A stretch of 35,035 nt of DNA, taken from Candidatus Nitrosocosmicus sp. Lineage in GTDB: Archaea > Thermoproteota > Nitrososphaeria > Nitrososphaerales > Nitrososphaeraceae. Each line of letters begins with the position of its first letter. Positions within the stretch are counted from its first letter, which is position 1. Location of the stretch: positions 1 to 35,035 of the forward strand of contig JAPSGR010000021.1 in the NCBI GenBank assembly GCA_031177355.1. Direction: 5' to 3'. Both the position numbers and the translations under genes were made by a program. Under the pieces are notes generated by a model. The model was not told where the DNA came from and searched no databases. It worked only from the letters and a program-made list of their open reading frames with translations. Below are positions 80 through 4,795 of the stretch, piece by piece.

Positions 80-95
80 CTTTACAAATGTAAAG
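80..95. promoter_or_regulatory. Operator-like palindrome, copy 1
   Basis: CTTTACAAATGTAAAG: 6-bp inverted arms around AAAT. It lies 38 bp before the start of the TRASH regulator and about 25 bp after an AT-rich TATA candidate (49-59), so it would cover the transcription start. It is identical to the copies at 854-869 and 889-904. Confidence 0.7.
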
Positions 96-133
96 AGTAA
101 TATATCTTAGTAGTTAAATGAATTGGTAATTGT

Positions 134-652
134 ATGCCATTTAGTCTCGATGAAATCGATGTATCTATTCTGAAGTCAATATTAGAAGACGGGAGAAAAT
201 CTTTTAGACAGGTTTCAAGAGAGACAGGAATAACTACTCCAACAGTGAAAGCTAGGTATGAAAGGCTAGTTAATGTTGGATTTATCAAAGGTGTTTTACC
301 TGTCTTTGACTTTGAAAAAGTAGAATCCAATGGAGAAAAGAATCTTATTCAATTAGATGATCTGAAAGAAAATACAAAGAAGAGAAAGAGTATTCACAAA
401 GGTGCTCATAACAGCAATTTAAAAGAAGAGGTAGATGAAATTAAAAAAAGAATTACAAGTGGCTTGACTATAAATATTGTATGTGATTTTTGCGAGGGTC
501 CAGTTTTTGGTAACCCTAAAATCTTAAAGTTTGCAAATATAGAAAGGTTCTTTTGTTGTATTTCCTGCAAATCAGGTTATACTCAAAAATACCGTGGTAG
601 AATAGAATCAATCAAAAAAAGATATGAAGGAAAATCTGAGTTGGATGAATAA
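134..652 (+). CDS. Lrp/AsnC-type regulator with C-terminal TRASH metal-sensing domain
   Basis: Probable metal-responsive transcription regulator of 172 aa. Residues 1-60 form an AsnC/Lrp-type winged helix (LDEIDVSILKSILEDGR, then the recognition helix TPTVKARYERL). Residues 65-110 are a charged linker. Residues 114-155 are a TRASH-type zinc/copper knuckle with Cys117-x2-Cys120 and Cys141-Cys142-x2-Cys145. The Lrp ligand-binding (RAM) domain is absent. The same HTH-plus-TRASH architecture is known from the copper regulator of the Sulfolobus cop cluster. A perfect 16-bp palindrome lies 38 bp before the start and recurs twice upstream of the next two genes, so autoregulation is likely (inference). 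The gene converges on the YHS gene with a 9-bp gap. The metal is not determinable from sequence. Confidence 0.88.
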   Translation: MPFSLDEIDVSILKSILEDGRKSFRQVSRETGITTPTVKARYERLVNVGFIKGVLPVFDFEKVESNGEKNLIQLDDLKENTKKRKSIHKGAHNSNLKEEVDEIKKRITSGLTINIVCDFCEGPVFGNPKILKFANIERFFCCISCKSGYTQKYRGRIESIKKRYEGKSELDE

Positions 653-661
653 TATCTATTA

Positions 662-817
662 TTACGATTTGTATCCGTAGCCGTACTTTGAAGGATTTTG
701 CTCTAACTGTTGTTTACACGCAGCAGAACACAAGTACACTTTGTTGCCATTAATTTCTGATACATATTTTGCGGTTTTTTCATCCACATTCATATTACAA
801 ACTGGGTCTTTCGCCAT
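662..817 (-). CDS. Small YHS-domain protein (51 aa), probable metal-binding chaperone
   Basis: A short frame read directly from the sequence. It encodes 51 aa, starting MAKDPVCNMNVDEKTAKY and ending KYGYGYKS. The fold signature is that of a YHS domain, a relative of TRASH: DPVCNM near the N-terminus (Cys7), then VYLCSAAC (Cys30, Cys34) followed by a helix. YHS and TRASH knuckles bind Cu, Zn or similar metals, so a soluble cytoplasmic metal carrier or sensor is likely. The gene is tail-to-tail with the TRASH regulator and divergent from the exporter gene. Its promoter side carries two copies of the 16-bp palindrome. The arrangement recalls the small TRASH protein (CopM) beside the regulator in Sulfolobus cop clusters. 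The identity as YHS is firm; the metal is unknown. Confidence 0.85.
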   Translation of the reverse strand: MAKDPVCNMNVDEKTAKYVSEINGNKVYLCSAACKQQLEQNPSKYGYGYKS

Positions 818-853
818 ACGGTATGATACGTAATAACATATTTAACTATGAAA

Positions 854-869
854 CTTTACAAATGTAAAG
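854..869. promoter_or_regulatory. Operator-like palindrome, copy 2
   Basis: CTTTACAAATGTAAAG, identical to copy 1. It lies in the 213-bp divergent region between the YHS gene and the exporter, 37 bp upstream of the YHS start, just beyond an AT-rich TATA candidate on the minus strand. Confidence 0.7.
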
Positions 870-888
870 AATTCCTGCAATTTTGGTT

Positions 889-904
889 CTTTACAAATGT
901 AAAG
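889..904. promoter_or_regulatory. Operator-like palindrome, copy 3
   Basis: CTTTACAAATGTAAAG, identical to copies 1 and 2 and 35 bp from copy 2 start-to-start. It is 41 bp upstream of the short leader frame that precedes the exporter. Confidence 0.7.
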
Positions 905-944
905 TCACTGTCTTATCTATGTATTATTGGTAAGGAAATTGGAT

Positions 945-1031
945 ATGACTACAAAAGAAAAAAGCAAAACAATTGGACACAAGATTTCAATTAAATTATC
1001 ATTACAAAAACTAGAAAGGGGGGTAGAATAA
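945..1031 (+). CDS. Possible 28-aa leader peptide coupled to the exporter gene
   Basis: A short frame, MTTKEKSKTIGHK to the C-terminal LERGVE, 28 aa and rich in Lys. An AAGGA sequence lies about 9 bp before its ATG. Its stop codon overlaps the exporter ATG as TAATG (stop 1029-1031, start 1031), the classic layout for translational coupling. The exporter also has its own GGGG-rich Shine-Dalgarno inside the end of this frame. No family is recognised. It may be a real coupled leader or a chance frame; the overlap and the ribosome site favour translation. Confidence 0.4.
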   Translation: MTTKEKSKTIGHKISIKLSLQKLERGVE

Positions 1032-3052: not shown

Positions 3053-4795
3053 TTATTCTACTATAACTTCTCCAATCATAGAAGGATGGTAGAAGCAATA
3101 ATAGGGATACTCGCCTGAATCTTCAAATGTAATACTATAGTATTGGTTTGGGATTATAGCTTCAGAATCAAACCCTTGACCTGCATCTTCATCGTCACCT
3201 TGTCCTGAGGTCACTGTATGTGAAATCGTATCGCCATTATACCATGTTATAGTTTGACCTCTTTCGATAGTTATAGGGTTTGGCGAATAAGACCTGTCTT
3301 CGTATAAACCTAGGATTACTGCTGGAATTGAGTTGCCAGAATTACCTCTAGAAACTTGATCATTATCGCTCTCTGATGACTGCTGCATATTTTGTTGTTC
3401 TTCTTCACCCGCAGTCGTAGCTAAAGTATCCGAGATAACCCCTGATGAACTTGCTAAAGAGGAAAAAGAAGAAGGTAGGATTCTAAATAGAGAACCGGTA
3501 TAGCTTAACACATACAAATATCCATCTGGACCTACTTCTATATCGGTTATGCCTCCGAAACCTTGACCAAAAACAAATGGCTGATTTTCTTTAGGATCAT
3601 TAACTTCTCTATCTTCAAGTAATGTTATATTTCCCTCTAATTCCCCATTATCGAAAGATAAATCATCACGTGCCTCATTTAGAATAAACCTGTACAAAAG
3701 ACCATTATTTATATCGCCTACAAACATGTCATTTTGATATTGCTCTCCCAGTTTATCTGAATTTAAGAATTTTAAAGCTGTAATTCCGATTGGTGTTAAC
3801 CAAGAAATTTTAGGTTCCGAATAACTTCCTTTACCAAAATATACAAGGTCTTCAGGAGTTGCCCCGTCATTTAATAGATCATTTTTGGATAACCCTTGAA
3901 TCAACATCCAGCCACTGTTAAAACCTGGATAAACCAAATTGATTTCGTCACCCATTGCAGGTCCGTTTTCAGTATCCCACAAATTTCCTGTAACTGGATC
4001 AAAATCCATTCCAAAACTATTTCGAATACCCATTGCATAATACAAGTTAAGGGGCGATTCATCACCAAAAATCACATCACCTTGTACAATTTGACCATTT
4101 TGAGTAACCCGTAACACTCCACCTAATCCATTTGGCTCTGGACCATCTTCAATATTCTGTGCTTGAGTTGTGTGTCTTCCTACTTCTCCTACTATAAAGT
4201 AGACGTTATTATCTGGACCAATCCTAATCTTACCTCCATTATGCTCACCTCTATCATTAGGTGGAGTGGCTGTCAAATCTAAAAGTAGGACTGGATTAAT
4301 CAATTGACCATCAACAAATTCATAGCGATAGAGCCTGTTTCCTTCCGGGTCTACATTGTCTTCTACGTCACTACCGTCTTCATTATTCCCAGATTCTGTG
4401 TAAGAAAGAAACACGTACCTGGTTCCATCAGGTTGTTGCTTTGCTACTGCAATACCTAATAGTCCTCTTTCTATACTATTAGCAACAGCTACATCAAGTA
4501 CTGGTTCTTCTTGCACCTGACCATCTATCACACGCATAACTTTGCCTGTGTTTTTTTCAGTTATCAAAATGTCATTAGGACCTAAAAATGCCAGGCTTGT
4601 AGGAAAATCTAATAATCCATTAGTCACTTTTTCGACTACCAGATTTTCGTCTTTTACCGTTGGACCAGTGGGTGATAAAGGCGCTTTAATGTATGCTCCG
4701 TACGATAGGTTAACTATAGAATAGTTCGAGTACAGTATTAAAAAAATACAAAATAAAGATAAACCAAACAATCTAAATTTTATTCTATTTCTCAA
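3053..4795 (-). CDS. Secreted glucose/sorbosone dehydrogenase-like propeller fused to a cupredoxin
   Basis: Extracytoplasmic protein of 580 aa. Residues 10-33 are an uncleaved or cleaved signal segment. About residues 50-445 form a GSDH-family six-bladed propeller (FPTSLAFLGPNDILITEK; RGLLGIAV; DRGEHNGGKIRIGPD with His185 at the catalytic-base position of soluble PQQ glucose dehydrogenase; LWDTENGP). A Ser/Gln/Glu-rich linker covers about 446-490. The C-terminal 90 residues are a plastocyanin-type cupredoxin with the complete type-1 copper set His526, Cys567, His570 and Met573. The layout suggests electrons pass from the propeller cofactor to copper at the cell surface. Substrate and cofactor (PQQ or another) cannot be told; many family members have lost dehydrogenase activity. 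It stands alone, convergent with nothing solid. Confidence 0.9.
   Translation of the reverse strand: MRNRIKFRLFGLSLFCIFLILYSNYSIVNLSYGAYIKAPLSPTGPTVKDENLVVEKVTNGLLDFPTSLAFLGPNDILITEKNTGKVMRVIDGQVQEEPVLDVAVANSIERGLLGIAVAKQQPDGTRYVFLSYTESGNNEDGSDVEDNVDPEGNRLYRYEFVDGQLINPVLLLDLTATPPNDRGEHNGGKIRIGPDNNVYFIVGEVGRHTTQAQNIEDGPEPNGLGGVLRVTQNGQIVQGDVIFGDESPLNLYYAMGIRNSFGMDFDPVTGNLWDTENGPAMGDEINLVYPGFNSGWMLIQGLSKNDLLNDGATPEDLVYFGKGSYSEPKISWLTPIGITALKFLNSDKLGEQYQNDMFVGDINNGLLYRFILNEARDDLSFDNGELEGNITLLEDREVNDPKENQPFVFGQGFGGITDIEVGPDGYLYVLSYTGSLFRILPSSFSSLASSSGVISDTLATTAGEEEQQNMQQSSESDNDQVSRGNSGNSIPAVILGLYEDRSYSPNPITIERGQTITWYNGDTISHTVTSGQGDDEDAGQGFDSEAIIPNQYYSITFEDSGEYPYYCFYHPSMIGEVIVE

Follow-up and report, generated by a model that had tools for sequence, protein, structure and literature searches.

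The stretch of Candidatus Nitrosocosmicus DNA analysed here (the window, 35,035 nucleotides) begins at a contig end and carries, close to that end, a regulator gene (134–652, + strand), a gene for a YHS mini-protein (662–817, − strand) and a gene for an MFS exporter (1031–2506, + strand), the last preceded by a short leader open reading frame (ORF; 945–1031, + strand). Set among these genes are three exact copies of the 16-mer CTTTACAAATGTAAAG, at positions 80–95, 854–869 and 889–904. A first-pass annotation of this DNA had noticed the identical palindromes and proposed a cop-like module with its own operator.

The regulator is a 172-residue protein of the HTH-TRASH, CopR type, and the sole match of this kind in its own genome. 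Pfam searches bore out the earlier call of a TRASH regulator, placing an Lrp/AsnC-type HTH at residues 5–52 (PF13412, E = 4e-11; PF13404, E = 9e-11) and a TRASH domain at the C-terminus (PF08394, E = 1e-5); the latter, at 25.9 bits, falls just under the Pfam cutoff of 27, and the TRASH domains of orthologues, at 31.0 and 31.6 bits, lie above it. Cysteines C117, C120, C141/C142 and C145 were invariant among 15 orthologues. No RAM domain was detected in the regulator, and the linker between HTH and TRASH showed low predicted order; the structure prediction was of low confidence (pLDDT 50) and served for secondary structure only. Some relatives encode a longer paralogue of 209–211 residues with HTH, RAM and TRASH-like domains (L044:4296-4931 and L061:2944-3573), a possible second copper regulator that could share the operator with the regulator described here. 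Genomes G013 and G014 contain regulator copies with internal stop codons and intact operators (loci L069, L070 and L074), an apparent decay of duplicated regulators.

The YHS mini-protein (51 residues, MAKDPVCNM...CSAAC), likewise as first annotated, matched PF04945 at 34.0 bits (cutoff 30.3, E = 3e-8) and is conserved, together with its operator, across the family; it is predicted to be a cytosolic Cu(I) chaperone or carrier. The exporter, also correctly described at the outset, is an MFS protein of 491 residues and of probable DHA2/EmrB type (PF07690, E = 9e-55) whose nearest solved relatives are EfpA structures (E = 4.5e-52), and which scores just under the cutoff of TIGR00711 (224.8 bits against 230.2). 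Downstream of it (3053–4795, − strand) lies a gene for a glucose/sorbosone-dehydrogenase-like protein with a C-terminal cupredoxin (plastocyanin/azurin) domain, near which no operator was found.

The leader ORF encodes 28 residues, MTTKEKSKTIGHKISIKLSLQKLERGVE, and begins 40 nt past the third palindrome, about where other target genes begin relative to the 16-mer. It was open up to the exporter start in 7/8 loci (0.71 expected from shuffled sequence), stood in the same relative frame in 8/8, and in most cases encoded TKEK or SKEK near the N-terminus of the peptide. A G-rich, Shine-Dalgarno-like stretch (GGGGGG, 1018–1023, + strand; GGAGG in most relatives) precedes the exporter start, and none precedes the leader ORF. 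Since the leader stop overlaps the exporter ATG (TAATG), translation of the two is probably coupled, and the exporter would likely be made from a two-cistron message on which the short leader is read first. A function of the leader peptide in its own right is possible, if unsupported.

Distribution of the palindrome in the genome, genus and family

The arms of the palindrome, CTTTACA and TGTAAAG, are perfectly complementary, and the central AA is its asymmetric part, giving each copy two mismatches to its own reverse complement. In the 2,322,072-base genome, the exact 16-mer was confined to its three window positions, so it is neither common nor random there; the symmetric core, TTTACANNTGTAAA, matched only the same three positions, compared with one match for the reversed control pattern. 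Operator 1 (80–95) lies upstream of the regulator gene and is a predicted site of autoregulation; operator 2 (854–869) is assigned to the YHS mini-protein, whose start codon is 36 nt away, and operator 3 (889–904) to the transcript of leader ORF and exporter. Near matches with up to two mismatches were more numerous (34, compared with 12 for the control), but eight such loci, when inspected, were either intragenic or lacked the promoter of a recognisable copper gene, and we therefore claim only four operators in this genome, the fourth being described below. The divergent side of operator 1 (1–79) is the contig end, and may hold a promoter and a gene cut at base 1; at one related locus (L049), an ODP-type beta-lactamase-fold gene occupies that side.

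In a set of 15 Nitrosocosmicus genomes, the core occurred 69 times, compared with 14 for the reversed control. A recognisable copper gene started within about 140 nt of 50/69 of these sites: the regulator 18 times, the YHS mini-protein 18 times, a CopA-type ATPase 11 times and the exporter four times, with HMA chaperones and a His-rich protein also among the genes behind genus sites. The reversed control pattern was absent from the loci of sites preceding cop genes. A set of 70 genomes from the family Nitrososphaeraceae held 184 matches to TTTACANNTGTAAA, compared with 43 to the reversed control, so that a common or random motif is ruled out at the level of genome, genus and family alike. Sites adjoined regulator orthologues in nine genera, and in genera other than Nitrosocosmicus a single operator often stood between divergent regulator and CopA genes; in one genus (g6), the regulator gene had no adjoining site, and the operator preceded CopA and YHS genes elsewhere in the genomes.

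The genes that follow sites in the family are those for the regulator, the P1B Cu-ATPase, the exporter and the YHS mini-protein, with one for a copper-storage protein in some places. The first-pass reading of the palindrome as the module's own operator, in a cop-like arrangement, thus gains support from conservation before regulator, YHS and exporter orthologues in related genomes. On this comparative evidence, the palindrome is a genuine conserved operator, and the gene set around its three copies is the core of a group of copper-defence genes conserved across Nitrososphaeraceae, which are soil ammonia-oxidizing archaea. The His-rich protein that recurs behind the operator (L039:4200-5012, L064:4661-5116 and L206:1152-1943) had no significant Pfam match and is a candidate new copper protein.

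Presence of the sites followed presence of the regulator. When the comparison was limited to genomes of 85% completeness or more, and the regulator was scored where full-length, sites were found in 34/34 genomes that had it (mean 3.82 sites, control 0.68), whereas genomes without it averaged 1.00 site (control 0.85), no more than background. The difference gave p = 8e-4 in a Fisher test and p = 2e-5 in a Mann-Whitney test, both of which ignore kinship between genomes. The single sites that some regulator-less genomes still hold are at this background level, and in G002, which lacks the regulator, no site was found. That another factor binds the palindromes, the TRASH regulator gene being merely nearby, would accord with the facts that a palindrome alone does not name its binder and that HTH-only Lrp proteins and RAM-TRASH paralogues exist in the family. 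Yet the excess of sites is limited to genomes with the HTH-TRASH regulator, placement suited to autoregulation is found at nearly all orthologues outside g6, and the half-sites resemble the CopR motif of Pyrococcus furiosus, all of which makes such a binder very improbable.

Copper ATPase and the nature of the signal

The first-pass annotation had also supposed that the ATPase of a cop cluster was here replaced by the MFS exporter, giving a regulon of possibly new specificity. Neither part of this survives. The genome's single P-type ATPase is a CopA on a separate contig from the regulator (G000:C126, L081:4032-6242, − strand), with an N-terminal YHS domain, PF00122 and a CPC motif visible in the translation, and it scores 587.4 bits against the copper-translocating model TIGR01511 (cutoff 397). 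Its operator, GCTTACAATTGTAAAG, lies 37 nt upstream of the ATG with a TATA box between, and has one mismatch in the 14-base core and the standard position. The separation of cop module and CopA in this genome (97% complete) is one of contigs, the window beginning at a contig end; in sister genomes, the CopA orthologue adjoins the regulator and carries the same operator. Because own and sister CopAs are both under the operator, the replacement is ruled out and the new specificity falls with it: the exporter and the YHS mini-protein extend a copper regulon. An operator on CopA points to Cu(I) as the signal, which is most likely the metal sensed, rather than a new one. It is the operator alone that ties the exporter to copper handling, in which we infer a role for it.

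Sensing of another metal, or of a drug-like compound with the exporter as main output, is the reading that the exporter's kinship with EmrB/EfpA-type drug pumps might suggest. On the window contig the regulator has no ATPase gene next to it, and no HMA copper chaperone was found in the genome at 97% completeness, both of which are in keeping with it. We nevertheless consider it improbable, given the shared operator of own and sister CopAs and the company that regulator and operator keep in relatives, where HMA chaperones adjoin them and where, at three loci, the operator separates a DUF326 copper-storage gene from that of a regulator homologue. At L160, L162 and L163, the DUF326 (Csp-like) gene is divergent from the regulator homologue, with the operator between, and a second P-type ATPase gene follows.

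Promoter geometry and the sign of regulation

Predicted TATA boxes lie 2 nt past operator 1 for the regulator (98–105, + strand, TAATATAT), 8 nt past operator 2 for the YHS mini-protein (838–845, − strand, TTAAATAT) and 8 nt past operator 3 for the exporter (913–920, + strand, TTATCTAT). Spacing of this kind is fixed in the family. The TATA box started exactly 8 nt past the 16-mer in 30/30 scored CopA and 20/22 scored YHS promoters, compared with 0–2 nt in 18/19 scored regulator promoters, where promoters with no clear TATA-like match (3/33 CopA, 1/23 YHS and 11/30 regulator) were left unscored. The archaeal BRE lies just upstream of TATA, so the operator covers the BRE at the regulator gene and stops short of the BRE at target genes. 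An offset of 8 nt at targets and 0–2 nt at the regulator thus predicts opposite regulation from one operator.

Dual action of the kind described for P. furiosus CopR, in which copA is activated and copR repressed, with the strongest response to Cu and Ag (PMC7830388), is the best-supported inference by analogy. The HTH-TRASH regulator would bind TTTACA-NN-TGTAAA at its own promoter, at those of the YHS mini-protein and MFS exporter and, on the other contig, at that of the YHS-domain CopA, a P1B-1 ATPase. Cu(I) held by the TRASH cysteines would change the shape of the DNA-bound regulator, and in this Cu(I)-bound form it would turn on the detoxification genes, at which the operator sits just upstream of BRE/TATA; at its own gene, where the operator overlies the BRE, it would keep expression low.

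The same operator and genes would also serve a plain metal-released repressor, with all promoters blocked until Cu(I) frees the DNA. At every promoter the operator is at most a few bases away from BRE/TATA, and CopR of Thermococcus onnurineus is reported, in work as cited in PMC7830388, to repress copA, on which account the sign of regulation predicted here by analogy is uncertain. However, simple blocking would have no need of the strict spacing of 8 or 0–2 nt, and the CopR proteins of P. furiosus, Saccharolobus and Halobacterium activate copA; a simple repressor is accordingly possible but doubtful. Taking operator, gene content and geometry together, we hold with considerable confidence that the module belongs to a CopR-type copper-sensing regulon of Nitrososphaeraceae, in which the regulator would act through the palindrome as a Cu(I) switch of probable dual action.

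Relation to known systems

All CopR features that can be judged from sequence are present in the system, a copper regulon of the archaeal CopR type whose operator is particular to this family and whose output is wider, comprising the mini YHS protein, CopA and the MFS exporter. As in P. furiosus (CopR, PF0739), an HTH and TRASH regulator, a divergent copR/copA arrangement and several target promoters go with a semi-palindromic operator, of half-sites TTNNCA/TGNNAA, directly upstream of the BRE (TTNNCAWWWTGNNAA; PMC7830388). Compared with that system, the operator here is likewise semi-palindromic and beside BRE/TATA, and in sister genomes and other genera the regulator gene is clustered with, or divergent from, that of a Cu P1B-ATPase, one operator serving both. 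The two differ in that the spacer here is of two bases, not three, with stricter arms (TTTACA/TGTAAA); in that the regulator has no His tail; in the presence of the YHS mini-protein and MFS exporter among the targets; and in the location of this genome's CopA on another contig. The missing RAM domain was dropped as a further difference, PfCopR itself consisting of HTH, TRASH and His parts. The cop cluster of Saccharolobus and Ferroplasma (CopR or CopT, CopA, and CopT, CopM or CopZ) is similar in that CopA and a small protein that binds metal are controlled jointly with the regulator, except that the small protein here is of YHS type, not TRASH or HMA, and that a DHA2 exporter and leader ORF are added.

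Within the same organism family, Nitrososphaera viennensis has a CopA2-CopZ-CopT region with genes for a P1B ATPase, an HMA chaperone and a TRASH-type regulator, although its motif for copper limitation, TTCSGSMTTTGWACYANT, differs in sequence from the operator here (PMC7785015). CopA2 rises under copper limitation in that organism, the regulation of these genes having been left open (PMC7785015), and such a rise is contrary to what a pure copper-excess switch would predict. We found no thaumarchaeal copper operator in the open-access literature, and a report in a subscription journal is possible. Ammonia-oxidizing archaea rely heavily on copper enzymes, and the analysis supplies a concrete operator, regulator and list of targets over 70 genomes, with a testable prediction from the TATA offset. 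It also connects a motif of euryarchaeal CopR with one found in archaea only distantly related, and adds to copper homeostasis two probable members, a mini YHS protein and an exporter of the drug-pump type.

Two further features are put forward tentatively and jointly: that a single palindrome may yield opposite responses through a shift of the TATA box by 6–8 bases, with target genes turned on and the regulator gene kept low, and that the copper-controlled DHA2 exporter, coupled to its leader, might provide a further efflux route beside CopA, either for copper itself or for a small molecule that binds it. By sequence, this MFS gene falls in the family of the EfpA, EmrB and QacA DHA2 drug exporters, from which it is set apart by its place under a copper operator and by its conserved, probably coupled leader ORF.
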